The position numbers were made by a program, and so were the translations under genes. Below the pieces are notes generated by a model. That model searched no databases. It was not told the DNA's origin and saw nothing but the letters and a program-made list of their open reading frames with translations. A DNA stretch of 64,000 bases, taken from assembly GCA_016882195.1 (NCBI GenBank), contig VGLU01000003.1, positions 1-64,000 of the forward strand. Direction: 5' to 3'. Each line of letters opens with the position of its first letter. Position 1 is the first letter of the stretch. Below, piece by piece: positions 32,738 through 49,781 of the stretch. This DNA comes from Thermoproteota archaeon. GTDB taxonomy: Archaea > Thermoproteota > Methanomethylicia > Methanomethylicales > Methanomethylicaceae.

Positions 32738-32850
32738 ACCACTCTTGGCGGTATCATCTTTTAACCAGACATACTAATAGCAAACCCACAGATAACTGTA
32801 AATTTGCTGATTATCCATATCTGGCTTGTCGTAGAGAGTTATACGTTCCG

Positions 32851-33058
32851 ATATATAAAAGAAGGGTGGTTAAAATTTAGTCTCAAACTCAAACCCCCAA
32901 ACCCAATAACTAACTACTACGACTACTCTACCACTACAACTCTAATGCTAACTAACCCTCTCAAGACAAAAACAAAAATAAAAACAGACACCAAAAATCT
33001 TTTTTAAAAACTTATTAACTCATGAAGCTGTAGTATGGTCGTACGAGGGGCGAAAGGT
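32851..33058 (+). promoter_or_regulatory. TATA box (ATATATAAAAG) and long G-depleted leader upstream of mtrA
   Basis: 32881-33020 contains only 4 G in 140 nt; strong TATA at 32851-32861. Confidence 0.6.
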
Positions 33059-33826
33059 ATGATCGACAAGGAAATGGATTGGCCCATAGCCCCAGGGGAT
33101 TATGAGATAGGTAATCCCCAAAATCCGGTTGCGATAGTATTTTTTGGATCTAAAAAAGTTATGATACCACCAGAATTTTATGCGATAAAAGGCGTATGCC
33201 ATACAGAAAACATTGGAATTGAAAAACTGATAGTAAATATTATTTCAAATCCAAATATTAGATATTTGCTTCTATGTGGAGGAGAAATATTAGGTCATTT
33301 CACGAGGGACTGCATTAAAGCACTCCATAAAAACGGAGTTGACGAAAAAGGTAGGATAATTGGAGCCAAAGGAAAAATTCCCTATTTAGTTAACATTCCA
33401 ACCAGCGCGATCGACAGGTTCAGAGATCAGGTAGAACTCATCGATTTAACCCATAACAGGGAGGCCTTAAAAGTCGTTAGCGGCTCAGGTAATGTTGAAG
33501 AGTTCCCAGTAGACTTAGATGAACTAATTAAGACAATAGAAGTTTGCATGATAAAAAAACCAGAAAAATATGGGGAGCCGATGATCATCCAAATCGGGCC
33601 TTTACAGGCCGATAGCGATGTGTTAGATCGCGCAGTAATGGATTTCAGTAATAAATTATTCGCACAAAGGGTAGGCCTTCAAACCGAAAAACTGACCACT
33701 AAAGCTGATTTTATATGGATATCACCAGAGTTTACCGTTTTTCTTAATCCAGTACTGGGTGATATTTCGATGATCGCTGTTGGGATGAATTTTATGAGAA
33801 GATTAATGGAATATTACCGAATATAG
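33059..33826 (+). CDS. mtrA: MtrA-like corrinoid subunit of tetrahydromethanopterin S-methyltransferase
   Basis: DWPIAPGDYEIGNPQNPVAIV, CHTENIGIEKLIVNIISNPNIRYLLLCGGEILGHFTRDCIKALHKNGVDEKGRIIGAKGKIPYL; start 33059 (GAGGGG upstream) or 33035. Confidence 0.9.
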   Translation: MIDKEMDWPIAPGDYEIGNPQNPVAIVFFGSKKVMIPPEFYAIKGVCHTENIGIEKLIVNIISNPNIRYLLLCGGEILGHFTRDCIKALHKNGVDEKGRIIGAKGKIPYLVNIPTSAIDRFRDQVELIDLTHNREALKVVSGSGNVEEFPVDLDELIKTIEVCMIKKPEKYGEPMIIQIGPLQADSDVLDRAVMDFSNKLFAQRVGLQTEKLTTKADFIWISPEFTVFLNPVLGDISMIAVGMNFMRRLMEYYRI

Positions 33827-33837
33827 GGGGGCTCTTA

Positions 33838-34734
33838 TTGTTTAAATTTAGTAAAAAACAGGAAACATTCGACATTGCCGGAGTCCGTATCGGCGGTCAG
33901 CCAGGAGAAGTACGAACGGTATTATCTGGAGCTATATTTTATAAGAACCATTCAATTGTAACGGATGAAAAAAGGGGTTTGTTCAACAAATCCTTAGCCG
34001 AAGAACTTATTGTTAAGCAGGAAGAACTTTCTGATAAGACCGGAAATCAGCATTTTGTTCAAATATTTGCTCTAACGCCTGAGGCGATGACAAATTATAT
34101 AGATTTTGTAACAGAGATTACAGATGCACCATTTCTGATCGATTCGATAGATTCGGAGGTTCGGTTGGCAGGAGCTGCACACGCATGTAAAGTCGGACTT
34201 TCGAACAGAGCCATATATAACTCAATCAACGTAGGAATAGAAAATAAAGAGATCGATAAAATAAGAGAACTTAAAATAGATTCAGCCATCATTCTAGCAT
34301 TCAGTCCAAAAGGATTTGACGTTAAAGGAAGGATTTACATATTGGATAATGGGAACGGAATCCTAAACAAAGGCCTCATTGACATAGCAAGAGAATGCGG
34401 GATAACAAAACCACTGATCGATATCGCAGTAACTCTCGTAGGTCAAGGAGCGGGGGCTGCAATAAGGGCGTCATATGTGGCCAAGGCCAAGTGGGGCTAC
34501 CCTGTAGGTGGCGGAATCTACAATGCAGCAGCATCTTGGGAAAAGCTAAGAGATTACGAAAAAGAATATCGTGAGTTCTGCGGTGTGGGTGCAAATGTGA
34601 TTCAGCGGATGGCAGGAGGAGATTTTGTCCTATACGGGCCGATAGAAAAAGCACCCAAAGTTTTTCCACTAGTTGCGTTTGCAGATGACATAATAGCAGA
34701 AGCAGTAAAAGACATCAAAGTAGAACCTAGATAG
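33838..34734 (+). CDS. mtrH: MtrH-like methyltransferase subunit of tetrahydromethanopterin S-methyltransferase
   Basis: MFKFSKKQETFDIAGVRIGGQPGEVRTVLSGAIFYKNHSIVTDEKRGLFNKSLAEELI; APFLIDSIDSEVRLAGA. Confidence 0.9.
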   Translation: MFKFSKKQETFDIAGVRIGGQPGEVRTVLSGAIFYKNHSIVTDEKRGLFNKSLAEELIVKQEELSDKTGNQHFVQIFALTPEAMTNYIDFVTEITDAPFLIDSIDSEVRLAGAAHACKVGLSNRAIYNSINVGIENKEIDKIRELKIDSAIILAFSPKGFDVKGRIYILDNGNGILNKGLIDIARECGITKPLIDIAVTLVGQGAGAAIRASYVAKAKWGYPVGGGIYNAAASWEKLRDYEKEYREFCGVGANVIQRMAGGDFVLYGPIEKAPKVFPLVAFADDIIAEAVKDIKVEPR

Positions 34735-34825
34735 TAATAGTTAACTATGCGCGGTAGGACCTCCCTCCCTTCTCACTGGAGACGGGATCTGACGGTCTTT
34801 CTTGTCCTTTAATTCATCCGTGAAA

Positions 34826-35767
34826 TCACAGGTATAAGATCTTGAGCATGCAGGGAAGGTTTCCCTTGAACCTCTTTGATGCATTAACTAGGTACTCCCA
34901 GAACTGGCTCAGGGTATCATCCTGCGTCTCTTTCCCCCTCCTGACACATATGGAGTACTCCGTGCCCTTGGCGTCCTCCCTATACACTATGCCCACCAGC
35001 CCGGCCCGCTCTGCCTTCTTGGCTATGATTTCCGGGCAAAGGCTCACGCCAAGGCCCTCCGACACCGCCGCTATGACGCTTGAAGGCTCTGGCATAAGCA
35101 TCTTGACCTCCAAATCCTCGCTATCCACCTTATTCAGCTTGAAGAACTCATCCACCAAACCGTTTACCTCGCAGCCGGCATCGTAGAGGATGAACGGGAA
35201 CTGCAGTACCCGTTCCAGGCTCAGGTTTCTTCTCCCGACCAGCTGGTGCCTCGGCGGGGTTATCACCACCAGCCTGTCCTTCGCTATCTCAACCTCCTCC
35301 CCTCGGAGGCCCTCTCTGGGGGATTTTGAGTAGGAGGCGAGATCTATCTCCCCGCTCTTAAGCTTGCCTAGTATCTGGTGAAGATCCAGAACCTCAAGAT
35401 TGAACTTTGCCAAGGGGTTGCTCAGTTTGAAGTTGCTGATGAGGCAGGGCAGGACGTACTCTCCTGCGATACCCGATGCACCTATCCTTATCGCCCTCTC
35501 CTGAGGGGGACCTGCGTGAACCACGGGCTTGGAGACGAGACCGATGACCGCCTTTGCCGTCTCTACGATCCTCTCCCCGTCCTCGGTCAGGAACATGCCC
35601 CGGTTGGTTCTCTCGAAGATCTTGGTCTGGAAGTACGCATCAAGCTTGTTTATCCTGTTCAATAGGACCACAGGGCTCGTTTTGAGGTTCTTTGCCGCCT
35701 GATTCAGGCTATTTGTCTTGGCCACCTCGAGGAGCGCCAGAAAATCGGATATTCGTGGGTCTCCCAT
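34826..35767 (-). CDS. LysR-family transcriptional regulator
   Basis: FLALLEVAKTNSLNQAAKNLKTSPVVLLNRINKLDAYFQTKIFERTNRGMFLTEDGE and substrate-binding domain. Confidence 0.9.
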   Translation of the reverse strand: MGDPRISDFLALLEVAKTNSLNQAAKNLKTSPVVLLNRINKLDAYFQTKIFERTNRGMFLTEDGERIVETAKAVIGLVSKPVVHAGPPQERAIRIGASGIAGEYVLPCLISNFKLSNPLAKFNLEVLDLHQILGKLKSGEIDLASYSKSPREGLRGEEVEIAKDRLVVITPPRHQLVGRRNLSLERVLQFPFILYDAGCEVNGLVDEFFKLNKVDSEDLEVKMLMPEPSSVIAAVSEGLGVSLCPEIIAKKAERAGLVGIVYREDAKGTEYSICVRRGKETQDDTLSQFWEYLVNASKRFKGNLPCMLKILYL

Positions 35768-35836
35768 GACATTAACAAAATGTTAAAGCAGTATTTATAT
35801 TTAACTAAAACCGAAAAAAATAAAGCGTGATCTCCC

Positions 35837-36277
35837 ATGGCTGTGGCGAAGTCCCAATATCAGTTCCCAAACAAGGTCGTAATCGCCCCCTGCACCGGTG
35901 TTGGACAGGCGGCCGGCACCATATCCCGGCAGGCTGCCTACAAGGTTGTGGACGAGCTCATGCCTGACAAAACCGTCCTCCTCTGCCTCCCCGCTTATAC
36001 CATCGGTGTTGAGGAGGACATCGAGATGGTCAAGCAGAACCCAAACAGGATCGTGGTCATAGAGGGCTGTAGCAACTTGTGCATGACAAAGCTCCTCAAA
36101 GAAAAGGGGTACAAGCCAGCAAAGATGGTCTACATTCCGCGAGTAATCGCCGACATGAAGGTAACGGTTCACAAGTCGGAGAATAGGGCTAAGCTGGGGG
36201 AGGTGGAGGAGAGGGTCGCTTCAGATGTCGTCCGCAGGGTAGTGGATGCGGCAAGATCGCTTGAAGCAAAACAATGA
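35837..36277 (+). CDS. Putative zinc-binding protein (DGC-domain-like)
   Basis: VIAPCTGVGQAAGTISRQAAYKVVDEL...TVLLCLPA...VVIEGCSNLCMTKLLKEKG Cys pattern. Confidence 0.7.
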   Translation: MAVAKSQYQFPNKVVIAPCTGVGQAAGTISRQAAYKVVDELMPDKTVLLCLPAYTIGVEEDIEMVKQNPNRIVVIEGCSNLCMTKLLKEKGYKPAKMVYIPRVIADMKVTVHKSENRAKLGEVEERVASDVVRRVVDAARSLEAKQ

Positions 36278-36301
36278 AAAAAGCAGAAATGGGGTAAGAC
36301 G

Positions 36302-37033
36302 ATGGGCCCAACACTCCCCAAGAAACTTCTCGCGGAGTTCATAGGATCTCACTTCTTGGTCGTTGCGGCAATCTCGCCTACAATACTGGGTTACAACGCC
36401 CTCGGCGCGAGTGTAGCTTTAACCGTCTTTATGGACGCCGTCGCCGTTGGCTTCGTCTTATTTGTCCTGATAGAGACCCTTGGGCCTATCAGCGGTTGCC
36501 ACATCAACCCTGCGGTAACCCTGGCTTTTATGGCAACAAGGAACACCAGCGTGAGGGAGGGTTCACTCTATGTAATAGCGCAGTTTCTGGGAGGCTTTAC
36601 CGGAGTGTTCTCCAGCCACCTGATGTTCTATCAAATCGTTCCGACGTTTATCACAGTCTCCACCATATCCCGCCCAGCGGGTAGTTACTACGCCGAGTTC
36701 CTCGGTACGTTCGCCTTGGTGCTGACGGTATTCCTATGCGTCAAAAACAATTCCAAATTTACTGGATTGGCCATAGGCCTCCTTGTTGGCGGCCTCATAA
36801 TGACAACCTCCAGCACGATGTTCGCCAACCCAGGTGTGACCGTTGCCAGGGTATTCACATATGCCATCGCTGGCGTGAGTCCGTTCGACGCGTCCATGTT
36901 CATAGTTGCCGAGATCATCGGAGCTCTAGCCGCAACACTGGTGGCCGGCGTCCTGCTTTCAACAAAGGGTGCCTCGCAACCCAGCGCGACCCAGAACCAG
37001 CTGCAACCCTACACAGCGGTAAATAACAGTTAA
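36302..37033 (+). CDS. MIP-family aquaporin/aquaglyceroporin-like channel
   Basis: SGCHINPAVTLAFMATRN (NPA) and MFANPGVTVARVFT (NPG variant), six TM pattern. Confidence 0.9.
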   Translation: MGPTLPKKLLAEFIGSHFLVVAAISPTILGYNALGASVALTVFMDAVAVGFVLFVLIETLGPISGCHINPAVTLAFMATRNTSVREGSLYVIAQFLGGFTGVFSSHLMFYQIVPTFITVSTISRPAGSYYAEFLGTFALVLTVFLCVKNNSKFTGLAIGLLVGGLIMTTSSTMFANPGVTVARVFTYAIAGVSPFDASMFIVAEIIGALAATLVAGVLLSTKGASQPSATQNQLQPYTAVNNS

Positions 37034-37076
37034 CTATAATATTCCTTGATTCCTGATACTCTTCAGTGATGGATCG

Positions 37077-38132
37077 TTGATAACCTCCTGGGTATCTTCT
37101 CGCCTCTCTGGGGCAGGGCTTCCCTCTACAAGGGAGGGGCATCTCCAATACGTTCTTGGCAGGTTGAAGCAGGTCACGGGGTACGCCTACGAGCAAAGCA
37201 GCTTCTACGGTGACCTCTTCCGGGCAGAGGGCATAACCCCAGACACCATTAACGACCTCAACGCCTTCTCCAAGCTTCCCTTCACCCGCGCAGAGGATAT
37301 CCTGAAGAATCCAAACCTCCTCCTCTGCGTATCCCACGCAGAAGTTCTGCGTGGCTACACGGTGGAGATGCTGAACGGTCAGATGAAACAGATCTTCTTC
37401 GCCCAGGACGATCTCGAGAACGTCATCAACGCCATCAGCAGCGTCCTCGACTCGATAGGCATAACTGCGAATGGCGATCTCGCCGTGGTATTCCCGCAGG
37501 AGTATGAGTGGGGCATCCCCGACCTCATGAGGAGGGCGGCCACAAAGTCCGGCGGCAGAGTAACCCTGGTGGAGGAGCCCGACCTCGATAAACAGATTGG
37601 CAAGATAGAGGCCCTGAGACCCGAGATGATCGTTGGCTCAGCCCAGCAGCTCTTCTTTCTGAGTATGGTTCTGCAGAAGAGAGGAAACCCATTCGGTGCA
37701 CACCCGAAGGCTGTGATAGCCTGCCACGGCTGCGTTCCCTACCTCTTTACAGAAAAGGCAAAGGCGGCGGTGGAACGCGTCTTCGGGAGGGTGCTCTTCG
37801 AGCACTTTGGGGTAACCGAGACGGGGTTCAACGTGGGCGTGGACTGCAGGGTACATGATGGGCTTCACCTCAACGAGGCGGACGTCTACGCCGAGGTTGT
37901 GGATCCGGAGACGGGCGAGCCCATCCCCCCGGAGGAGAGGGGGGAACTCGTCTTGACGAGCCTCAGCCAGAGGGCGATGCCCATCCTCAGGTACCGGACG
38001 GGCTACATCTCCTCCATAACGGACGAACCCTGCAGGTGTGGCGATTCGCTGACGCGGAGGCTTAAAATCTTCGACACGCTCGCCACAGAGGAGGAGCTGC
38101 TCAACCGGCCCTTAGTATTTCATCCATTTTAG
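37077..38132 (+). CDS. PaaK/coenzyme F390 synthetase-like AMP-forming ligase
   Basis: SSFYGDLFRAEGITPDTINDLNAFSKLPFTRAEDI, FEHFGVTETGFNVGVDC, ERGELVLTSLSQRAMPILRYRTGYIS. Confidence 0.8.
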   Translation: MITSWVSSRLSGAGLPSTREGHLQYVLGRLKQVTGYAYEQSSFYGDLFRAEGITPDTINDLNAFSKLPFTRAEDILKNPNLLLCVSHAEVLRGYTVEMLNGQMKQIFFAQDDLENVINAISSVLDSIGITANGDLAVVFPQEYEWGIPDLMRRAATKSGGRVTLVEEPDLDKQIGKIEALRPEMIVGSAQQLFFLSMVLQKRGNPFGAHPKAVIACHGCVPYLFTEKAKAAVERVFGRVLFEHFGVTETGFNVGVDCRVHDGLHLNEADVYAEVVDPETGEPIPPEERGELVLTSLSQRAMPILRYRTGYISSITDEPCRCGDSLTRRLKIFDTLATEEELLNRPLVFHPF

Positions 38133-39387
38133 TGAGCGTGGCTGATGCTATCTTCTTGGTGGCGATGCTACCGTAGGCCAGTGCCTCCTTGGTCAGTTTC
38201 AGCTCCTCCCCCTCCCATTTCACTAGCCCGGTGAGCCTCAGCACCCAGATTAGCCCCCTTAGCCAGAAGCTCTCCTCCTCCAGCCCCTTCAGGTACGACC
38301 TGTTCACTCCTCCGTAGTAGAAGCGCCTCGCCAGCCTCACAAGGGGGGAGTTCCTCACCTCCGAGAAGGCGTAAACCGGTAGCCTGCCCTCGTTTATAGT
38401 CGCCAGATAGTCCTCCGTGGACGGGGCGTTGAGCGTGAAGCGGTCGTTCACAAAACCCCAGGCGCGTGGCCCCAGACCGATGAAGCACTCATGCTCATAG
38501 GGTCCCTCGTAAGCCTCAGGCTTCAGCGAGAAGCTCCACAGCGTCCTCAGTTTGTACCCATACCTCTCCAGCGTCTCCACAATGGCAAGGTACTGCTCCG
38601 TCTCCTTCCCCCCGTCGGTCTCCATGGCTACCCCCTTCCTTGGCTTGGCTCCCTTCCCTGCCGATTGGATCTTTGCCAGCGCGGTGTAATGAAGCAGCAT
38701 CAGCGGGTATGTTGAGATCCCGTGCAGCCCAATGCCGGCGGCGGTCTCCAGATCCTCCACGAGCATCTCCTTGGTCTGGTTGGGCAGGGAGAACATCAGG
38801 TCGATATTCACGTACTCGAACCCGTAGTCCATTACCCTCCTCAGCACGGCTGTCAGCTCCTCCCGCCTTCCCTTCCTGCCTAGGCTCTTGGAGAGAACAG
38901 CCTCGTTGAATGTCTGGACTCCTACGCTCACCTGGTTGACGCCGCTGTCCACCAGCGCCTTCAGGACCTCGTCCTTCAGGTCGTTGGGGTATGCCTCAAT
39001 GGCGATCTTGCCACGGAAGGGGAAGTACTCGCTGACGTACCCGCTCACCTGCCCGAACTCCTTGTAGAGGAGGGTGGGTGTCCCTCCGCTCAGGTAAACC
39101 CTTTCTACCACTGGTCTATTGCCTTTGCCCTCGAAGCCCTCCGAGTATAACCTTAGTTCGTCCCTGAGACCGTGAATGTATATCCTCTTGTACTGCTCGG
39201 TGTAGACCTCCCCGGGGAAGGCGCAGAATGGGCACCTCGCCCTGCAGAAGGGCACCCTCACGTTCAGGGCGGTCCTATCAACCCTTCTTGAGAAGATTCC
39301 AGGGTCAGCCCCCTTGGTGAAATTCACGCTGGAAGCGACCCTATCAGCCAGCCTATCTGATATCCAACGCAGAATCCTCTCCTCCAA
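38101..39387 (-). CDS. Radical SAM protein, HemW/HemN-like
   Basis: VRVPFCRARCPFCAFPGE (CxxxCxxC), YLSGGTPTLL, SVGVQTFNEAVL, VNIDLMFSLPNQT. Confidence 0.85.
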   Translation of the reverse strand: MEERILRWISDRLADRVASSVNFTKGADPGIFSRRVDRTALNVRVPFCRARCPFCAFPGEVYTEQYKRIYIHGLRDELRLYSEGFEGKGNRPVVERVYLSGGTPTLLYKEFGQVSGYVSEYFPFRGKIAIEAYPNDLKDEVLKALVDSGVNQVSVGVQTFNEAVLSKSLGRKGRREELTAVLRRVMDYGFEYVNIDLMFSLPNQTKEMLVEDLETAAGIGLHGISTYPLMLLHYTALAKIQSAGKGAKPRKGVAMETDGGKETEQYLAIVETLERYGYKLRTLWSFSLKPEAYEGPYEHECFIGLGPRAWGFVNDRFTLNAPSTEDYLATINEGRLPVYAFSEVRNSPLVRLARRFYYGGVNRSYLKGLEEESFWLRGLIWVLRLTGLVKWEGEELKLTKEALAYGSIATKKIASATLTKMDEILRAG

Positions 39388-39491
39388 AGGGATCGCCCCA
39401 CGACCTTTAGATGAGGCGCGGGTATATATATAAATCCTGAACCCATGGCGGGCAACAAATAATAAGGCAGTCTCGTTAAGTTAGGGTAAAG

Positions 39492-40292
39492 GTGTTCACA
39501 TTGAAGGATAATCCAGCCGTGCAGGCCAAGGGCGAGTTCTCCGACCTACAGCGGAGGATCAACGACTGCATTAAGCCCAAGGGGCATCCCGTGGCCTTCA
39601 AATTCTACCGGAGCGAGACCGATCTGGACGAGAGGATGATAGGCCACCTGGTGAGGACCCCCCTCGCACTTTGCCAGGTTCTCAAGCTTGTCAACACGTA
39701 TGGAATCCCCGAGCTGATGGTGAGGGAGAACAGGCAGGGCTGCGCCATGGGGGCGCACTCCATGGGCTTCTCCCTTATGCCTGAGGAGCTCTGCGCCGCG
39801 TGGCAGCTCATATACGGAATGGAGCCGCGGGACTTTGAGAGGATAGCCAAGGACATTCTGAGCCTCCCGCCCAACGAGCATGCGGCAGCGTTCTTCGCCC
39901 CTTTGCGGACCTTCGACGACTTTGGGGTGGAGCCGGACGGCGTGGTCTTCAACGTAAACGGCACCCAGGCCCTCCTCCTGCTCTGGGCAACCTATGTCTC
40001 CACAATGGAGAAGCCAACCTTCAGCTACAACGGCAACGCCGCGTGCGAGATAGTGGCGGCACTCAAGCTTGGCAGGAGCCCTTGGCTCGTAATCCCCTGC
40101 ATAGGGGCTAGGTCCCTTGCGTCTACCCAAGACGACGAGCTCTGGTTCGGTCTGGGCACAAAGCACCTGAGGCTGGCTGAGAGGTCACTCGCCCGCTTCT
40201 CCATGAGCTACCCTCCTGCCGTGGAGCAGGGTCTCTTCGTTCCGCCCCTCTCTGAGCACATAATCACAAAGCTTATCTCGAAAACGCAATAA
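39492..40292 (+). CDS. DUF169 family protein
   Basis: KPKGHPVAFKFYRSETDLDER...LCQVLKLVNTYGIPELMVRENRQGCAMGAHSMG...NGNAACEIVAALKLGRSPWLVIPCIGAR typical of DUF169. Confidence 0.75.
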   Translation: MFTLKDNPAVQAKGEFSDLQRRINDCIKPKGHPVAFKFYRSETDLDERMIGHLVRTPLALCQVLKLVNTYGIPELMVRENRQGCAMGAHSMGFSLMPEELCAAWQLIYGMEPRDFERIAKDILSLPPNEHAAAFFAPLRTFDDFGVEPDGVVFNVNGTQALLLLWATYVSTMEKPTFSYNGNAACEIVAALKLGRSPWLVIPCIGARSLASTQDDELWFGLGTKHLRLAERSLARFSMSYPPAVEQGLFVPPLSEHIITKLISKTQ

Positions 40293-40298
40293 TACAGA

Positions 40299-41333
40299 GT
40301 GATTCCAATGCCAGTCAGGCTGATCGTCTTGGGGGGTCACTTCGCCAGTGGCAAGACAACCCTCCTTCTCAGGTTCTTGGCCCTCCTGAAGAAGGGGGAG
40401 GGGAGGGTCGGCGCCTTGGTGAATGATGTGGGTCCGGTTGACTTCAAGCTGGTGGCGGCGATGGCAGACTGCCCAGTGGAGGAGATCTCGAGGCTCTGCA
40501 TGTGCATAAAGGAGAAGGACCTGAAGGCAGCCCTCAAGAGGCTTCTTGACCTCAACGATGAAATCATACTGGTGGAGGAGATAGGCTTCGGCAACCCCCA
40601 CAAGTGCTGGAACACCCTCTCAAACCACATGTCCGTCTTAAATGGTCCCTTCGAGCTGAATCCCATCACCGTCCTCGTCGACGGCGAGTTTCTCACGAAG
40701 TCGTACCAGGGCTTCGTATCGACCCTGCCTCCCCTAATGGAGCAGCAACTTTCGGAGGCGGATATCATAGTCGTTAACAAGACCGATCTAATCCCGGTCG
40801 ACTCAAAAGAGACGATTGAGGGCATACTCAGGGGGGTCAACGCCAGGGCAAGGATCTTCTTCATCTCCGCGGCTTCAGGGGAAGGGGTAGACGGTCTACT
40901 CTCAGAGCTGATGACGACGAGGTGGACCCCAAGGCCGCCGCAGACGGTGCCAGAGGTCACCCAGCGCCGGACCGAGGAGTTCTCGAATATGCACTGGTCA
41001 GCCTACAAAGTGGAGTTCGAGCTACCGGACGAGAGCGCATTTCAGGATACGATGAGGAAGATCCTAACGCTGTCAGGGGACGAGATGCTGAAGAGCGGGG
41101 GGCAGATCGTCCGCGTGAAGGCATACCTCGAGGCCCCTTCAAACAGGATTTACGCCTCACTTACCCCTGATCTGAATGTTGAGTTCTACCCGAACTCTGA
41201 GGCTCTAAAGATCAGGAGCGGAGTCCTGACGCTCAGCTTCGTCGTCAAGGGCATTAAGGGGGAGGAGGTGTCCTCTGCCCTGAAAAAGGCACTCTCCGAG
41301 ACCGGCGGGAAATTTACCGTCAAGCGGGTCTGA
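40299..41333 (+). CDS. G3E-type P-loop GTPase (CobW/P47K-like)
   Basis: VLGGHFASGKTTLLLRFL, ALVNDVGPVDFKL, ILVEEIGFGNP, VVNKTDLIPV; CMC instead of CxCC. Confidence 0.82.
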   Translation: MIPMPVRLIVLGGHFASGKTTLLLRFLALLKKGEGRVGALVNDVGPVDFKLVAAMADCPVEEISRLCMCIKEKDLKAALKRLLDLNDEIILVEEIGFGNPHKCWNTLSNHMSVLNGPFELNPITVLVDGEFLTKSYQGFVSTLPPLMEQQLSEADIIVVNKTDLIPVDSKETIEGILRGVNARARIFFISAASGEGVDGLLSELMTTRWTPRPPQTVPEVTQRRTEEFSNMHWSAYKVEFELPDESAFQDTMRKILTLSGDEMLKSGGQIVRVKAYLEAPSNRIYASLTPDLNVEFYPNSEALKIRSGVLTLSFVVKGIKGEEVSSALKKALSETGGKFTVKRV

Positions 41334-41357
41334 CAAAATCAACGGACTGAAAAAGGT

Positions 41358-42746
41358 TTATTTCCTGTTTTGGGCGCACCATAGCTCCCTGAAGGGTGCC
41401 CTCCCCCTGACATCACTGGCGTTGAACAGGCAGAACGGGACGAACCTCCCGTCCGGCATCACCTCATGGATGCAGCAGTTCCTCAGCCTGCCGTAGTCTA
41501 TGTTCCATGCGTCCTGGAAGTGCATGGCAGAAATGGTCAGGGCATTCAGGGTAAGGTCCTTCACGAGCCCCATCCATGTCCCGCAGCCGCAGTCCTTGTC
41601 AGACATGGGCTGATCCCCGTCCAAGAGCCCAGCCTCCTTGGCCAGTATGTTGCCCCAAGAGCCGTAGACTCCCTCCCTCACCGTCCTCGTGATGTCCAGG
41701 TCCGGAGAGAACTTTCCGCTCATCTTGGTGAGCGAGACGAACCTCCCCTCGCTGACGAAGCCGAAGCACTTGGTGTCACAGTGCACGTCGGCGCACCCGG
41801 TGGGGATGAAGTCGTCTGGGGTGATCTCCCCTCCGGTCTGCCTCTCTATCTCCCTTAATAGGCTTGGTATCGTTATGTAATTCTCATCCTTGGGCTCCGC
41901 CGGAACCCTTCCGAAGTAGCTGATGGGCTGGAAGTGAACCCCCTTGATTATCCCTATGTTCTTCTTCGCGAACTCTATTATCTTGCCGATCTGATCCACG
42001 TTCAGGCCGGGTATTATTTTGGGGACAAGCTCGATGGGCAAACCGGCGCGCCTGCAGTTCTCAACGGCCTTCAGCTTCAGATCGAGCAGATCCACGCCGC
42101 AGATCTTCTTCCATACCTCCCTGTCAAATGTATCAAATCCCAGGTATACCGAGTCCACCCCCGCCTTCTTCATCACGCCGGCGTACCCATCCTCCTTGGC
42201 GAGCCTCACGCCGTTGGTATTGAGCTGTATGAAGTCGATCTTCAGCCCCTTTGCCATGGCCACTATCTCTGGCAGATCGTTCCTTATGGTCGGCTCTCCG
42301 CCGCTTATCTGGACAACCGTGGGCTTCTTTACCTTCGTACTGACGGCCGTGAACATCCCTCTCAGGGTCTCCATGTCAAGATTGGTCATCTTGGAGCTAT
42401 CAGAGCTGGCGAAGCAGTACGGGCACTTAAGGTTGCAGCCATCCGTTACCTCAACGACCGTCAGGCACGTGGATTGAAGCTGCTGGGAGGGGTCCCACAT
42501 CTTTGAGGGGGCGTCCTTCTCCCACTCCTTGAAGACTTGGGGGACAACCTTCGGGTGATCGTAGTGTTCGACCTCCGAGTAGTACCTCGCATCGTCCCAT
42601 ACCGGCACCTTGAAGAGCCCGTGATCCGGGCACTCCTTTACCAAGAAGACCTGACCGTTCTCAACGACCCTCTGGGCCTCGACAAGCGAGAGGCACACGG
42701 GACATAGACTCTTGGTCTCTCCAATTACCTCGCCCATAGCATACAC
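41358..42746 (-). CDS. Radical SAM protein resembling the tetraether lipid synthase (Tes/MJ0619) family
   Basis: CPVCLSLVEAQRVVENGQVFLVKECPDHGLF; VEVTDGCNLKCPYCFASS; ISGGEPTIRNDL; C-terminal CCIHEVMPDGRFVPFCLFN. Confidence 0.78.
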   Translation of the reverse strand: MYAMGEVIGETKSLCPVCLSLVEAQRVVENGQVFLVKECPDHGLFKVPVWDDARYYSEVEHYDHPKVVPQVFKEWEKDAPSKMWDPSQQLQSTCLTVVEVTDGCNLKCPYCFASSDSSKMTNLDMETLRGMFTAVSTKVKKPTVVQISGGEPTIRNDLPEIVAMAKGLKIDFIQLNTNGVRLAKEDGYAGVMKKAGVDSVYLGFDTFDREVWKKICGVDLLDLKLKAVENCRRAGLPIELVPKIIPGLNVDQIGKIIEFAKKNIGIIKGVHFQPISYFGRVPAEPKDENYITIPSLLREIERQTGGEITPDDFIPTGCADVHCDTKCFGFVSEGRFVSLTKMSGKFSPDLDITRTVREGVYGSWGNILAKEAGLLDGDQPMSDKDCGCGTWMGLVKDLTLNALTISAMHFQDAWNIDYGRLRNCCIHEVMPDGRFVPFCLFNASDVRGRAPFRELWCAQNRK

Positions 42747-42795
42747 TACCTAGAACAGTGTGACAAAGAAATAATAAAAAAAGAGAGAAATAAGG

Positions 42796-43251
42796 CTATG
42801 CGCCTTTTTTCTTCTCCAGGAGCATCTGGGCGATGGCAATGGTCTTGATGGCCATGAACTCCTCGATGAAGGCCGTGGGTGAGCTCTTGCATCCCCAAGC
42901 GGAGGCTGCCCTTACCACACCAATGTACTCCATGTCTGCGCGGATCCTGTACATCTGCTCGTTGGTCTTTGCGTAGATCCAGTCGGTCTTGTCCTCCGAC
43001 ACGAAGTCGGTAATGGCCTTGAGAGCAACCTTGTAGGAGAAGGCCGTGGTTACCTCGCCACTGTCCTTGTACTGGACCGCGAATGTTGCGGCGCCAATCC
43101 TCTTGACCGCCCAGTTCAGCTTCTCTGCGGGGAGAACAGCCTTGTCCTTTGTCGACTCTCCGTAGTCGACCGTCTCCTTGACGTTTGCCTCGGTGATTCC
43201 CCGTTCCTTGAGAAGGTTCGCAACTGTTGGAGTTATAACTACATTCACCAT
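42796..43251 (-). CDS. Uncharacterised protein in corrinoid methyltransferase operon
   Basis: Intact ORF MVNVVITPTVANLLKERGITEANVKETVDYGESTKDKAVLPAEKL...; tight spacing (13 nt) to UroD-like gene. Confidence 0.7.
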   Translation of the reverse strand: MVNVVITPTVANLLKERGITEANVKETVDYGESTKDKAVLPAEKLNWAVKRIGAATFAVQYKDSGEVTTAFSYKVALKAITDFVSEDKTDWIYAKTNEQMYRIRADMEYIGVVRAASAWGCKSSPTAFIEEFMAIKTIAIAQMLLEKKKGA

Positions 43252-43264
43252 GTCTTGTGACCCC

Positions 43265-44380
43265 CTAGTACTTCCCCCACTCCCTGGCAGCCTTGACCAT
43301 TGCATAGATGTTACCTGGCGGTGTGTACGCTGGGACCTCGCATGCGCAGCCGTGTACGAAGCCTCTCGGAGAGTCCTTGCCCTCGAGGATCATCTGCTTG
43401 GAGACATCGTAGACCTCCTTGGGTGTCCCCCTGTACATCAGCTTGGTGTCCACTGAGCTCATGATCGTGGCCATGTTGCCGTAGACCTTCTTGGCCTCAG
43501 ATACAGGGAACGACTCCTTGCCCATGTAGCCTATGTGCATGACGGTGAATGGGCTGAAGAACTCGTCCTTCCAGATCATGTAGTCCCTGGAGTGGTTCCC
43601 GCAGAGGTGGTACCACAGCTGCGGACCTGCCCCACCCTTGAAGGCCTTCTTGACGTGCTTTATGTGGTAGTCCATGCCGAACTCCTTGACCTTGGCTGGT
43701 TGCAGCAGGTCTGAGTTTGCCAATACGCCTCCGATGACCATCATGGCAAAGCCGTATCTCTTTGCTAGTGCGATTGCGCCGTTGGTTGAGGTCTCCATGA
43801 CCGTTTCCATCAGCTTGTGGCATATCTTCGGTTGCTTAAGTGTCCAGAGCATGAACTTGTCGACGCCCGTCAGCTCAGCCGCCATGGCTGTGAGGCAGAA
43901 CGTGAAGTGGATCGGCACGAACCAGTTCGGGAAGTACTGCTTGACGAAGTCGTATCCCTCTACGAACCCTGAGAACGTTGGTCCCTTCTCAATCTCTGAT
44001 ACGTCAGGAATGTGCAACTTGTCGGCGTCTTCTGGGTTCTTTATCGGCCTGTCACCGGTCACCACTGGTGGGAGGGTCTCCTTGAATTCCAGTTTGCATC
44101 CCAGCTCCCTTAGCCACACGTTCGAGTAGAACCAGTGGGTCACGGGGAGTAGGTCGTACAGCTCGTTTGTCCAACAAACGCTTGCCAATCCCAGCTTCGG
44201 CCTCATGTAGAATTCCTTGAGAGTGTAGCCGTTGATTATGGCCGCGTGCGGCAGTATGATGGGGTCCACGTCCACACGATCAAATGGGACGCCAACGAAT
44301 GGTCCCGCGAACCTCTTGGCGGCATGACCATGCCAGTCCGTGTTTATGCTTGGGAAAAAGACTTCTGGTGGAGCGCTCAT
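43265..44380 (-). CDS. Uroporphyrinogen decarboxylase-like (UROD superfamily) corrinoid-linked methyltransferase
   Basis: UROD-like barrel sequence with LWYHLCGNH and FVHGCACEVPAYTPPGNIYAMVKAAREWGK (Zn-thiolate style H/C ligands); adjacent corrinoid protein. Confidence 0.82.
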   Translation of the reverse strand: MSAPPEVFFPSINTDWHGHAAKRFAGPFVGVPFDRVDVDPIILPHAAIINGYTLKEFYMRPKLGLASVCWTNELYDLLPVTHWFYSNVWLRELGCKLEFKETLPPVVTGDRPIKNPEDADKLHIPDVSEIEKGPTFSGFVEGYDFVKQYFPNWFVPIHFTFCLTAMAAELTGVDKFMLWTLKQPKICHKLMETVMETSTNGAIALAKRYGFAMMVIGGVLANSDLLQPAKVKEFGMDYHIKHVKKAFKGGAGPQLWYHLCGNHSRDYMIWKDEFFSPFTVMHIGYMGKESFPVSEAKKVYGNMATIMSSVDTKLMYRGTPKEVYDVSKQMILEGKDSPRGFVHGCACEVPAYTPPGNIYAMVKAAREWGKY

Positions 44381-44386
44381 GCCTTC

Positions 44387-45031
44387 TTACCTCCCAGCAA
44401 GCTTCTCAGCGACCTTTATGGCTGCGGTAGCATCCTTGGCCCAAGCGTCTGCTCCTATGGACTTGGCGAACTCCTCGCTGGTGGGTGCCCCACCTATGAG
44501 AACCTTCACCTTGTCCTTTACGCCAAGCGCCTTCAGCTCATCAACGACCCTCTTCATGTTTGGCATTGTTGTTGTCATCAGCGTGGATATGGCGACTACC
44601 TGCGCCCCCTCTGTCGCTGCCTTGGCTGCCATGTCCTTGACCGGCACGTCCCTTCCCAGGTCGAACATCTTGAAGCCGCTCGCGTCGAGCATGATTCGCA
44701 CCAGGTTCTTGCCGATGTCGTGGATGTCCCCCTCGACCACTCCGATGACCACTTTGGCCTGCGCGGCAGCCCTCTCAACCTTCAGGTGGGGCTTGAGAAT
44801 ATCGATTGCCGCATACATTGCCTCCGCGGACAGGAGAATCTCGGGCACATACATCTCGCCGGTCTCGTACTTGTTGCTGACCACCTTCATACCCTCGGCG
44901 CAGCCCCCCATGATTGCATCGTAGGCATCGATTCCAGTTCTTAGTGCCTCATTGGCTAGTTTCGCTGTCGTCTCTGCATCGCCTGCGACTGTCGCGTCTG
45001 CTAATCCTTTTAGAATTTCTGCTCTATCCAT
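44387..45031 (-). CDS. Methyltransferase corrinoid protein (MtaC/MttC-type, B12-binding)
   Basis: VVIGVVEGDIHDIGKNLVRIMLDASGFKMFDLGRDVPVKDM, GGAPTSEEFAKSIGADAWAKDA; N-terminal four-helix cap. Confidence 0.95.
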   Translation of the reverse strand: MDRAEILKGLADATVAGDAETTAKLANEALRTGIDAYDAIMGGCAEGMKVVSNKYETGEMYVPEILLSAEAMYAAIDILKPHLKVERAAAQAKVVIGVVEGDIHDIGKNLVRIMLDASGFKMFDLGRDVPVKDMAAKAATEGAQVVAISTLMTTTMPNMKRVVDELKALGVKDKVKVLIGGAPTSEEFAKSIGADAWAKDATAAIKVAEKLAGR

Positions 45032-45355
45032 TTTTTCCTCACCTTATATTTCCGTAAAAGGTTAGAAAATAGGGGCTATAAATAGGTAACTAAAATATTA
45101 TACTACAAAATATTACATACAGTTAAATAACGTTCTCTTTGCTCGCTTAACCATATGGTTGGTATATCCATCCATAATCTTTAGGAGATAGAAATCTGGC
45201 CGAAAGCAGCACTGACAGAATTCCCGGTGACAGTAGACTTTTCCGCCTTTGGCAGGTACACTCCTCCCAGATACAGCCGAACCCAAAGACTTAAGTTTAA
45301 TAAGCCCTCTTCAGTCATACTATCTCTGACGAATCTTCTAGGAGAGTGGATAAAG

Positions 45356-45652
45356 ATGTCTTGTGTGAGGCAACACGTAACTGAAGAGACGCTTGCAATG
45401 CAAAAAACCATAAAATGCCCCAACTGCAACTTCGAGTTCGCCCTGACCTATTCAAGGGCATTCGCCTGTCAGGGCTGCCCGCTCTCCGTCACCGGTTGCG
45501 AGTATGCACGCTGCCCCCGCTGCGACTCTGAGTTCAAGATACACGATCTCAACATTACGCCGAACCGCATGGCCACCAGACACCTGGACAAGCATGTATC
45601 AAAGTTACTCTCCGGCTACTACCAAGAATTCGGCGAGAGCGCCAGACGGTGA
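45356..45652 (+). CDS. Small multi-CxxC zinc-ribbon protein
   Basis: IKCPNCNFEFALTYSRAFACQGCPLSVTGCEYARCPRCDSEFKIHD. Confidence 0.65.
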   Translation: MSCVRQHVTEETLAMQKTIKCPNCNFEFALTYSRAFACQGCPLSVTGCEYARCPRCDSEFKIHDLNITPNRMATRHLDKHVSKLLSGYYQEFGESARR

Positions 45653-45873
45653 AGTCTTTTCTTCACTTTAAACCGTCTTTATTCAGCTAATGGCGATTAC
45701 AGCCGGATCTAGTGCCAAGTCCGAATCAATGCGTAATATTGAACTATTACAGCGTTATTTATAATATATAATCTCAAGATACGATCTGCTTCTTTTAGAA
45801 GCATTTTTCAAAAACCTCATCTAATGAAAAAGTATATAATGACTGCCCCCTCAAGTTATCTCGAGGTTGAACC

Positions 45874-46869
45874 ATGACTCCTAGAGACCGAGTTTTAGGC
45901 GCTCTAAGGGGCGAAAAGGTGGATCGAGTTCCTGCATCCTCAGTGACACAGGTGGGCATAGTCCAGGCCATGGAGCAGATAGGGGCAACTTGGCCTGCAG
46001 GCCACAGCGACCCTGAGCAGATGGTGAAGATAGGCGTATCATTGTACAAACTAGCAGGCCTTGAGACGGCGAGGATCCCCTTCTGCCTTACCGTTCAGGC
46101 TGAAGCCATGGGGTGCAAGGTGAACATTGGAACCATAGACAGACAGCCCTCCATCGCGGAGCACCCAACAACACCTGCGGACCAGATCACAGTTCCGCCA
46201 GACTTCCTGAGCAGGGGCAGAATCCCCGCGGTGATAAAGGGCACGGAGCTGCTAAAGCAGTACCCGGATCTGCCAAAGATGGTTGGAATAGAGGGACCAC
46301 TCACCCTGGCAGGTCACCTAGTGGGCATCGAGAAGCTTATGCTCATGACAATAAAGCAGCGCGACGCCGTGGTAAAGGTGGTGGATACCTGCACGAAGGC
46401 AAACATCGAGTTCACCAAGGCGATCCTCGACGCCGGAGCTGAGGTATTTGTGATCTCAGACCCAAGTGCCTCGCCCGAGCTGATGAGCCCCAGGGACTTT
46501 GCAAGCATTGTCAAGCCAAAGCTCAGGGAACTGGCACACATCGTCACCAACAAAGGCGCCATAGGCGTACTGCACATCTGCGGCGGCGTACTGAAGATCA
46601 TAAAGGACATGGCCGAGACAGAGTTCGAGACGTTGAGCATTGAGGAGAAGGCGGACGTTGCTACGGCCAAGGCGACCATAGGTCCAAAACCAACGCTGGT
46701 CGGCAACGTCTCTGCAGCCAGAACGCTCTTCTCTGGAACCCCAGAAGCGGTAAAGGCAGAGGCCCAGAGAGCCGTCGCTGCGGGCATAGACGTCTTAGGT
46801 CCAGGATGCGGCATTGCTCCGCGCTCCCCGCTGGACAACGTGAAGGCACTCGTGAGCGCCGTAATGTAA
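45874..46869 (+). CDS. MtaA/CmuA family (UROD-fold) methyltransferase
   Basis: MTPRDRVLGALRGEKVDRVPASSVTQVGIVQAMEQIGATWPAGHSDPEQM; VLHICGGVLKII; LGPGCGIAPRSPLDNVKAL. Confidence 0.9.
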   Translation: MTPRDRVLGALRGEKVDRVPASSVTQVGIVQAMEQIGATWPAGHSDPEQMVKIGVSLYKLAGLETARIPFCLTVQAEAMGCKVNIGTIDRQPSIAEHPTTPADQITVPPDFLSRGRIPAVIKGTELLKQYPDLPKMVGIEGPLTLAGHLVGIEKLMLMTIKQRDAVVKVVDTCTKANIEFTKAILDAGAEVFVISDPSASPELMSPRDFASIVKPKLRELAHIVTNKGAIGVLHICGGVLKIIKDMAETEFETLSIEEKADVATAKATIGPKPTLVGNVSAARTLFSGTPEAVKAEAQRAVAAGIDVLGPGCGIAPRSPLDNVKALVSAVM

Positions 46870-46978
46870 AAACCACTTTTTTCTTTTTTTGTCCACTCTG
46901 CGAATGAGTAAGATCTCACCGGGCTTCATTTTTTAGAACTTACACTATTTGATTGGGATTGGAATATTAAATGATTCG

Positions 46979-48013
46979 TTAGCCATGTTCCAGTGTGTAT
47001 TTCTTTACGGTCTCGATCATAGTCTGTATGTGGGAAAGTGGTGTATGGGGCACCAAACCACACCCTGGCGCAACGACGTCTATGCCGTCCTCCATTACCT
47101 GAAGCGTGATCTTCCTGATCAATTCAGGCTCCTTCAGCCATAGATCAACAGGATTGATGTTGCCTATCAGTGAAGCCTTTCCGTCCATGAGTTCCCTAGC
47201 CCTCAATATGCTGACCCTTTGATCTATGCTTATTCCACGCACCCCCGTCTCAACCATAAACGGCAATATGGATGTGCAGTTCCCGCACATATGCAGCACT
47301 GTTGGCACCCTGCAAGCCTTGATTACCTCGGTTATTCTTGGGAAGGCATATCTCCTATAGAGCGCCGGTCCTATGAGCTCGCCCGTTGCACTTGAATCAA
47401 TAAAGATTATTACGTCCGCTCCGGCATCCTCGAGCTCCTTTACAAATTTTATTATAAAATCAGATGCAACATCATAGGTCTTACCAACATCTCCAGGTGC
47501 ATGCGCCAAAGATTTGAAGAATCGCTCCATCCCGTGGATTTTGGCAGTCAAAGAAGAGGGTCCCTGTACACCTGCCACGATCGGCACCCCCAGTGGGACC
47601 ATCTTCTTCAGCAGCCTTACCGCGTCTATAACAGTTCTAGTGCTCTTGGAAGAGGCTGGATCGGCATCCGCCCTCAGTCTCAAGTCAGAGAGGGGCTCAA
47701 CTAACGGGGTTCTGTCATGCCTGCCCTCAAAATAATCTGCCTTGCATCCTAGGGCCTCAGCCTCCGAGTGTATGCCGAAGGGCACCCTAACGTTCTCAAA
47801 TCCCGCCACCTCATAAGCATAAGCAGAGAGTCTTGCCATCCTCTCCGGATCTCTGTTGGCCTCGGGCCAGCAAGAACCGCTCATCTCCATCAGGTCGATA
47901 ATGCCAGTCTGGGTTACTGACACGACTGGAATCCGATCCATCTTTTTACGGCGCAACGCCCCAAGGAAGCGCTCTTTCGGCGTCACGCTCTCACCACATA
48001 AATAATAGCTCAC
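46979..48013 (-). CDS. MtaA/CmuA family (UROD-fold) methyltransferase, second copy
   Basis: TPKERFLGALRRKKMDRIPVVSVTQTGIIDLMEMSGSCWPEANRDPERM; VLHMCGNCTSIL; VVAPGCGLVPHTPLSHIQTM. Confidence 0.9.
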   Translation of the reverse strand: MSYYLCGESVTPKERFLGALRRKKMDRIPVVSVTQTGIIDLMEMSGSCWPEANRDPERMARLSAYAYEVAGFENVRVPFGIHSEAEALGCKADYFEGRHDRTPLVEPLSDLRLRADADPASSKSTRTVIDAVRLLKKMVPLGVPIVAGVQGPSSLTAKIHGMERFFKSLAHAPGDVGKTYDVASDFIIKFVKELEDAGADVIIFIDSSATGELIGPALYRRYAFPRITEVIKACRVPTVLHMCGNCTSILPFMVETGVRGISIDQRVSILRARELMDGKASLIGNINPVDLWLKEPELIRKITLQVMEDGIDVVAPGCGLVPHTPLSHIQTMIETVKKYTLEHG

Positions 48014-48028
48014 GAGCAGAATGAGAAT

Positions 48029-48496
48029 TTATTTTTTACTTAGTTTGCCTTTACCAGCGTGCCTCAATCCGCCCCGCGCCTCTTCGACCTGAGTTGTGCT
48101 GAAGCCATATCTCTCCATGACCTCTCCGATGCTATTCAAGGTCGCGGAGGCAACCTCGGTCTTGCCCAACCCTATAATTATTGAGTTCACCACCAGATTA
48201 GCCGTACTCTCTGGCCTGGTGATATTCCCCTCCACGCGAACTCCATACTTAATGCCGACCGTATCCGCCTGTATGTACCCCGAGTGTGTCTTCAAATACA
48301 GCTTTACGTGACCTATCGCTTTGGCACCACTACGTATGCACGCTTCCGCGATCTCCCTAACGAGATCTCCGGTGATACTTCTCAACGTTGCGGGATCGAC
48401 CGCCCTTGGAGAAGAGATCTTGAAGGCTGCACCATATCCCCCGACATTTATCGCCTCGTCCTCGTGCGGGATATCACGGTGAGCATCTCCTTCCAT
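48029..48496 (-). CDS. Uncharacterised protein, genetically coupled to GTPase
   Basis: MEGDAHRDIPHEDEAINVGGYGAAFKISSPRAVDPATLRSITGDLVREIAEACIRSGAKAIGHVKLYLKTHSGYIQADTVGI...; next to (possibly overlapping) upstream GTPase stop. Confidence 0.65.
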   Translation of the reverse strand: MEGDAHRDIPHEDEAINVGGYGAAFKISSPRAVDPATLRSITGDLVREIAEACIRSGAKAIGHVKLYLKTHSGYIQADTVGIKYGVRVEGNITRPESTANLVVNSIIIGLGKTEVASATLNSIGEVMERYGFSTTQVEEARGGLRHAGKGKLSKK

Positions 48497-48506
48497 AATG
48501 GGTTCC

Positions 48507-49124
48507 TCACTGGGCCACGAGCAGCTCCACAATCATCTTGATAAGATCGCTCAGCCCGTCTCCCTTCAAGGCCGATATCCTTATCATCTTTGCCCCCGGG
48601 TTTACGGCCTTCAGCCTCTCCTCGTACACTTTAATGTGAGCTTCATCAACAGCATCCACCTTGTTAATTGCTACTATATCTGCACCTGAAAGCTGCCTCA
48701 TCACAAAAGTACCTATGCCCTCATCCGAGAGTTGCTCCTCCGCCCTCTCTGCGTCGAAGATCACGACCACCGGTCCAGCCTTGATCTCTGTACCCTTTGC
48801 CGTCGTGATCCCATCCTTAACCGAGGACGGGATCGACACGCCGGACGGCTCTATGAGGACTATGTCGGGGTTGAAGCCTTTTGAAAGCTCCTCGAGCGTG
48901 ATGGCCAGGTTGATAAGAAGCTCACAGCAGATGCAGCCGCCTCCTATGTCCCTGACCTTGAGACCAAACTCGTTCACCACCTTTGCGTCGACCGGCACAT
49001 CGCCTATCTCATTCACAATTATGGCCACCCTCTTTTTGTACTCATTAGATAGTTGCCTCGACAGGGCGATGAGGGTCGTGGTCTTACCACTGCCTAGGAA
49101 ACCTGCTATTTGTACTACCTTCAA
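48507..49124 (-). CDS. G3E-type GTPase (CobW/HypB-like metallochaperone)
   Basis: VVQIAGFLGSGKTTTLIAL, IVNEIGDVPVDA, GGGCICCELL, VAINKVDAV; TTG start 49124 preceded by AGGAGG. Confidence 0.85.
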   Translation of the reverse strand: MKVVQIAGFLGSGKTTTLIALSRQLSNEYKKRVAIIVNEIGDVPVDAKVVNEFGLKVRDIGGGCICCELLINLAITLEELSKGFNPDIVLIEPSGVSIPSSVKDGITTAKGTEIKAGPVVVIFDAERAEEQLSDEGIGTFVMRQLSGADIVAINKVDAVDEAHIKVYEERLKAVNPGAKMIRISALKGDGLSDLIKMIVELLVAQ

Positions 49125-49272
49125 GCTAAAAATCCTCCTAAAATGACTTATAGGTTTAGGCTCTGCCTTTTTTGTCTTTCGTCGCCATATCTGAGGATTT
49201 GGTGTTGATGATTCTGCCTGAAAGGGCAAAGTTAATGAATGGTGACCTGTATTATCGATAAAAGTGGTTCGT

Positions 49273-49659
49273 ATGAAACTCGCCTTAATAGGTAGCAAGC
49301 GGACAAAGTTCTCCAATCCCAAGGCAGTTGAGATGTTGGAGGCCTTCTTAGACAACAACCTGAAGGAAAAGCCGGAGGAGGTCATCTTGGCTGGATGCCC
49401 CATGAACATGGACTCTTGGACGAGGGACTACATCCTCAACCGCCAGATGAAGTTCGTGGAATACAATCCCCCAGGCCCGCTTGGGGTGAACAGCCGCAAC
49501 CAGAGGATAGCAGACGACTGCAACGAGATGTGGGCGTTCTGGTCCGGCGATATGGGTTCCAATACGCTGGCTATAGCCCGCATAGCCAAAAATTCGGGTA
49601 AACCTGTGAGACTGTTTGTCGTCAAAGACAGCATAGAGGAACTAAAGGACATACCTTAA
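49273..49659 (+). CDS. Uncharacterised small protein, possible SLOG/DUF2493-like nucleotide-binding fold
   Basis: MKLALIGSKRTKFSNPKAVEMLEAFLDNNLKEKPEEVILAGCPMNMDSWTRDYILNRQ...GDMGSNTLAIARIAKNSGKPVRLFV. Confidence 0.55.
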   Translation: MKLALIGSKRTKFSNPKAVEMLEAFLDNNLKEKPEEVILAGCPMNMDSWTRDYILNRQMKFVEYNPPGPLGVNSRNQRIADDCNEMWAFWSGDMGSNTLAIARIAKNSGKPVRLFVVKDSIEELKDIP

Positions 49660-49781
49660 TGATCTACCTTCTATGAAAAATACCAGCGTTAAAGACAACA
49701 TTCTCAGATCCAAAATTTTCGTTTACTCAAATATGAATAAATTTAAATCTTGCCCGTCCTCGAATTTATCAAAGGTGCCAG

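Follow-up and report, generated by a model that had tools for sequence, protein, structure and literature searches.

Introduction

The canonical MtrA-H assembly is a Na+-pumping complex. In the full complex CoM binds at MtrCDE (PMC10998594), His84 of MtrA is the cobalt ligand with Glu54 as its hydrogen-bond partner (PMC4915002), and four Asp/Asn residues form the pterin site of MtrH (PMC12774963). MtrA and MtrH have also been described outside this complex. The closest case is a Methanomassiliicoccales genome with mtrAH and without mtrB-G, in which MtrA bears an unusual C-terminal extension and MtrH is divergent (Speth & Orphan 2018, PMC6147122); with no H4MPT route, the pair was proposed to act as an N5-methyl-tetrahydrofolate:CoM methyltransferase (PMC6147122). 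According to a 2024 survey, most of the Methanomassiliicoccales environmental clade carries mtrA and mtrH (PMC10804542). Furthermore, Thorarchaeota possess a “canonical” MtrAH without the other subunits (PMC9635834), and MtrA, MtrH and MtrAH fusions occur in Asgard archaea (PMC11291895). From Methanomethylicia, mtrH alone is known (PMC10033731; PMC6783470). Our literature search found no report of an extended MtrAH in Methanomethylicia and none on Methanosuratincola with mtrH. To our knowledge, orphan mtrAH pairs in methanogens have been noted before and left without explanation. Here we analysed such a pair in a stretch of 64,000 nucleotides (the window) from a Thermoproteota archaeon of the Methanomethylicaceae (assembly GCA_016882195.1, contig VGLU01000003.1).

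Results

The first-pass annotation of the window had described adjacent MtrA-like and MtrH-like reading frames flanked by LysR and threonine synthase genes. Profile searches (PF04208, PF02007, TIGR01114) agree that both frames are real, intact and neighbouring, and both flanks were recovered. That annotation made no mention of the MtrA extension, the GC anomaly, the insert or the published precedent. The features of this part of the window are:

31436-32737, minus strand: threonine synthase (thrC), flank of mtrAH
32740..34850, no strand: low-GC segment with mtrAH and the upstream region, foreign in composition
32774..49736, no strand: lineage-specific 17-kb insert between thrC and deoxyhypusine synthase, holding mtrAH and the MtaA/corrinoid region
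33035..33826, plus strand: mtrA, MtrA core (residues 14-147) with a soluble C-terminal extension of ~118 residues; alternative start 33059
33838..34734, plus strand: mtrH, pterin-dependent methyltransferase subunit; TTG start
34826-35767, minus strand: LysR regulator, flank of mtrAH

MtrA matches PF04208 (E=1.8e-49; 168 bits, cut-off 25) over residues 14-147 only. PF02007 covers the whole of MtrH (E=7e-117), which also matches TIGR01114 (mtrH; 395.7 bits, cut-off 271). The ATG at 33059, the mtrA start first annotated, is internal to an open frame that also allows the ATG at 33035. The membrane helix of MtrA is missing, with a best 19-residue hydropathy of 1.55 versus 2.6-2.7 in canonical MtrA. 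Residues E58 and H88 have the spacing of Glu54 and His84 and are kept in 47 and 48 of 48 sequences, respectively. All four pterin-site residues of MtrH (D102, N128, D195, N229) are kept, as are R238 and K242, part of a basic patch proposed for the H4MPT tail. In a predicted structure of the extended MtrA the MtrA domain is confident; most of the extension has a pLDDT of about 55-60, and no match to its predicted fold was found in the PDB.

The genome search covered 1,451,139 of 1,451,440 bases (1.45 Mb; the genome is 97% complete). Over these bases tblastn with canonical queries detected none of MtrB, C, D, E, F and G, and the MtrE family is not in the genome. The absence of MtrB-G from the window, as first annotated, therefore extends genome-wide, and no complete mtr operon lacking its own A and H subunits was found elsewhere in the genome. 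By tblastn over the same bases, the window mtrA was the sole MtrA match, with no second copy, while MtrH queries found only the window mtrH and one remote MtrH on contig C13. The mcrA gene is present, on contig C14. The H4MPT marker Mch is missing from the genome, as it is from 10 of 10 searched relatives of its order. The ACS beta subunit (CdhC) is absent from the genome as well, thus a methyl group cannot reach acetyl-CoA via ACS. MetF, a MetV-like partner, GcvT, GcvP and GcvH are all encoded, so that folate C1 chemistry is likely to operate in the cell. No homologue of E. coli FolD was found in the genome, which leaves a gap in the folate route.

The remote MtrH homologue on C13 stands in one row with a corrinoid protein and a core-MetE-like methionine synthase domain (L169:3711-6117), and its pterin Asp103 is replaced by Gly; this row probably encodes a corrinoid-dependent methionine synthase. 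In addition, contig C3 carries at about 80.8-83.6 kb (L171:16777-19586) two full-length MtmB monomethylamine methyltransferase genes adjoining a corrinoid protein. Neither has an in-frame stop, hence neither has the amber (pyrrolysine) codon found in MtmB of Methanosarcina.

The pair is foreign in composition. GC is 0.35-0.41 and GC3 0.34-0.36 in the segment 32740..34850, versus 0.55-0.60 and 0.72-0.77 in its neighbours, with sharp GC steps at both edges of these ~2 kb. For the individual genes, GC is 0.39 (mtrA) and 0.41 (mtrH) and GC3 is 0.36 and 0.34, with GC3 of 0.77 in thrC and 0.72 in lysR; the mean GC3 of the 61 other main reading frames of the window is 0.69 (sd 0.10). No direct or inverted repeats of at least 11 bases were found at the segment edges, and the window and the junctions in relatives hold no tRNA, hence no tRNA integration site. 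Among 23 genomes of the order MtrA occurs in this one only, and the canonical MtrA of the class belongs to a different family. The view that mtrAH is what remains of an mtr operon once complete in the lineage was rejected, given this distribution and the foreign composition.

Comparison with eight relatives placed the pair in a larger insert. The distance from thrC to deoxyhypusine synthase is 1.05-2.5 kb in these genomes (7.3 kb in one) and 17 kb in the window, where synteny resumes at 49.7 kb. On this comparison a single lineage-specific insert holds both mtrAH and the MtaA/corrinoid region. As only mtrAH is strongly foreign in composition, the insert may be composite. All eight relatives carry a homoserine-kinase-like gene (thrB) beside thrC, profile-confirmed in two. 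It is missing next to the window thrC (32738-33034), and the only match elsewhere in the genome is a remote GHMP kinase-like one (24% identity); threonine synthesis in this genome may have changed or may rely on a different kinase.

The methyltransferase and corrinoid genes at 43-49 kb, to which the first-pass annotation had drawn attention, are real:

43265..44380, minus strand: divergent URO-D/MtaA-like protein (PF01208, E=2e-28), adjoining the corrinoid protein
44387..45031, minus strand: corrinoid protein, MtbC/MtgC-like (TIGR02370, 198 bits, below the cut-off of 215; PF02310, PF02607)
45874..46869, plus strand: MtaA, methylcobamide:CoM methyltransferase (NF040654, 406 bits, cut-off 400)
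46979..48013, minus strand: second MtaA/MtbA-type methyltransferase (PRK06252, 330 bits versus 244)
48029..48532, minus strand: p167, a 167-aa protein of a CobW-p167-MtaA module found also beside Methanomassiliicoccales mtrAH
48507..49409, minus strand: CobW-type GTPase (PF02492, E=9.5e-35)

The two methyltransferases at 45874-46869 and 46979-48013 and one remote URO-D on contig C1 are the only MtaA/MtbA-class proteins of the genome. p167 has no Pfam or NCBIfam match, and resembles a protein of the Methanomassiliicoccales cluster (E=3e-8); the window CobW is 33-37% identical to the CobW of the same cluster. On contig C1, at about 202-207 kb (L211:1781-6601), paralogues of the corrinoid protein, URO-D and CobW stand together with a p167-like protein, and mtrAH is not among them. 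The remainder of the insert (34826-42746) encodes LysR, a DGC-domain protein, an aquaporin-type channel, a DVU_1553-like AMP-dependent ligase, a HutW/HemN-like radical SAM protein, DUF169, CobW and a TrsS-like radical SAM protein. Among the best NCBIfam matches in this part, several are to selenium-associated models, all under cut-off.

Full-length homologues of the extended MtrA were found in 42 of 148 Methanomassiliicoccales genomes, mostly matching residues 8-262, and mtrH follows mtrA in 29 of the 30 loci examined there. The extension alone matches Methanomassiliicoccales MtrA (best E=1e-11) and is in none of the best Thermoproteota MtrA matches. The window MtrA groups with the Methanomassiliicoccales clade in a tree of the core, built with the extension columns left out (support 99/95), and so does the window MtrH in its own tree (97/97). 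In both trees the window pair is sister to, not nested in, the sampled Methanomassiliicoccales pairs. Grouping with Nezhaarchaeota or Thorarchaeota was rejected for MtrA (p-AU 0.027 and 0.016, respectively), while for MtrH the p-AU of 0.09 is above rejection. A recent duplicate of a canonical complex, the other origin against which the first-pass annotation had advised checking its proposal, was rejected on these trees. On this sequence evidence mtrAH appears to have been acquired by horizontal transfer, along a route that we infer.

Across 21 regions from Methanomassiliicoccales, mcr genes, TfuA, YcaO, an Lrp-type regulator, a DUF169-like protein, mtrA and mtrH recur in this order, followed by a metallo-beta-lactamase-fold protein, RamA and MtaA/URO-D, and sometimes by CobW with a 164-aa protein. 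The MtaA/URO-D family is present in 17 of these regions, RamA in 16, YcaO in 15, the DUF169-like protein near mtrA in 14 and McrB in 13. TfuA and YcaO stand for McrA thioamidation. The mcr, McrA-thioamidation, RamA and MtaA neighbours tie the pair to methanogenesis and not to an unrelated pathway. We know of no report of this linkage of mtrAH between the mcr/McrA-thioamidation genes and RamA/MtaA. The window mtrAH lacks the mcr-YcaO-RamA-MtaA setting: out of the cluster the window has only MtaA and CobW-p167, which lie in the same insert, and weakly DUF169 elements. One Methanomassiliicoccales genome with mtrAH, OWC_0010, has no MTHFR match.

Discussion

On balance we favour the view that the window encodes a soluble, Na+-uncoupled MtrAH of Methanomassiliicoccales type, horizontally acquired, which links folate C1 to methyl-CoM via MtaA. 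The TIM barrel of MtrH would hold an N5-methyl-pterin, most probably methyl-tetrahydrofolate and not methyl-H4MPT, whose methyl group it would exchange with the MtrA corrinoid in its His-on state. The methyl-corrinoid would then be served by an MtaA-type enzyme of the 17-kb insert; MtrCDE with the CoM site being absent, another protein must handle CoM, and the likely partner for this half-reaction is MtaA at 45874..46869. The pair would thereby connect the folate C1 pool (glycine cleavage, MetF/MetV) with the methyl-CoM pool feeding methyl-CoM reductase, and we infer a reversible exchange, its direction set by supply and demand. The soluble shuttle uncoupled from the Na+ pump that was first annotated here is retained in part: MtrB-G and the MtrA helix are missing, the corrinoid and pterin residues are kept and MtaA lies in the same insert. 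As for the methyl carrier, given there as a tetrahydropterin, the absence of Mch from the genome and ten relatives makes H4MPT an unlikely partner and folate the likelier one. Counting against the favoured view are the FolD gap, OWC_0010 without MTHFR, the kept R238 and K242 and the MtrH p-AU of 0.09. In addition, mtrAH lies ~11 kb from MtaA and differs from it in GC, so the two form a putative functional unit at most.

An assimilatory or catabolic shuttle, closer to the first annotation, would have MtrA take methyl groups from the corrinoid/URO-D enzymes at 43-48 kb and MtrH load a pterin for biosynthesis or oxidation. This reading departs from the folate:CoM link in its partner, the 44387 corrinoid protein, and in its one-way direction. 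The corrinoid/URO-D genes are real and share the 17-kb insert with mtrAH, and MetF/MetV could oxidise or use methyl-folate; nevertheless, the paralogous corrinoid-URO-D-CobW-p167 set on C1 has no mtrAH, thus such a set does not need the pair, and the steady neighbours of mtrAH in Methanomassiliicoccales are mcr, YcaO, RamA and MtaA/URO-D. We consider this shuttle unlikely. More improbable still is that MtrAH uses H4MPT as in the canonical complex, the carrier being made or salvaged for the purpose. The tail-patch residues R238 and K242 are kept, MtrH passes the TIGR01114 cut-off and shares 49-50% identity with canonical Nezhaarchaeota MtrH, whereas neither the genome nor any of the ten relatives searched has Mch, and Methanomethylicia genomes have been published as lacking the archaeal Wood-Ljungdahl pathway (PMC10033731).

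The sharp GC steps at both edges of the 2-kb segment, an mtrA that stands alone in the order and the lack of a conserved partner directly adjacent could also mean that the pair was acquired recently, is poorly integrated and does little or nothing, or that the assembly is chimeric and includes a low-GC fragment of another archaeon. However, neither frame is broken and the active-site residues are conserved, the segment lies within a 130-kb contig whose right-hand neighbours also belong to an insert absent from relatives, and the pair is only sister to the known Methanomassiliicoccales copies and near-identical to no contaminant seen. We regard this explanation as very improbable, and the probability of a chimeric contig at 32.7-34.9 kb as low.

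Returning to the folate:CoM link, the case suggests that the mtrAH pair moves between distant methanogen phyla. If the activity is true, methyl groups on folate could pass into methane in methyl-reducing methanogens without Mtr, and substrate methyl groups could likewise enter biosynthesis without it. It is conceivable, if doubtful, that soluble MtrAH and MtaA form a mobile module of methyl-reducing methanogenesis that joins folate methyl to methyl-CoM without a Na+ pump, its gain letting an H2-dependent methyl-reducer without H4MPT and ACS exchange carbon between biosynthetic C1 and methane.

Comparison with known systems

The window pair shares with the canonical Mtr complex the MtrA cobalamin domain, the MtrH TIM-barrel methyltransferase and the same key residues. 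It differs in lacking MtrB-G, the MtrA membrane helix and the H4MPT marker (Mch), and would thus not pump sodium. MtgA of Desulfitobacterium (PDB 6SJ8/6SK4) resembles MtrH in fold and in the methyl-H4F-binding residues. Unlike the window MtrH, MtgA, of the glycine betaine system, pairs with its own MtgC corrinoid protein, and the window MtrH scores 222.9 bits against the NCBIfam MtgA equivalog, under the cut-off of 550. The Thorarchaeota and Asgard MtrAH are likewise orphan A and H subunits outside a complete complex, with a short soluble C-terminus; the Thorarchaeota pair differs by another C-terminus, a second mtrH upstream and a separate clade in both trees. In Thorarchaeota and one related archaeon we observed the order mtrH-mtrA-mtrH, with two different mtrH genes flanking one mtrA.

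The nearest likeness is to MALP of the Methanomassiliicoccales “Lake Pavin cluster” and to the environmental clade of that order, where mtrA is followed by mtrH, mtrB-G are lacking and the extension is homologous. The pair, the missing B-G subunits and the extension being already known there (PMC6147122; PMC10804542), the undescribed system announced by the first-pass annotation does not hold. The differences lie in the host, Methanomethylicia belonging to another class and phylum, in an MtrA identity of 31-43%, and in a setting within a 17-kb insert and not beside mcr (mcrA being on C14), in a genome without ACS. The window pair thus looks like a known, uncharacterised kind of MtrAH, whose novelty would lie in the host lineage and the apparent horizontal route.
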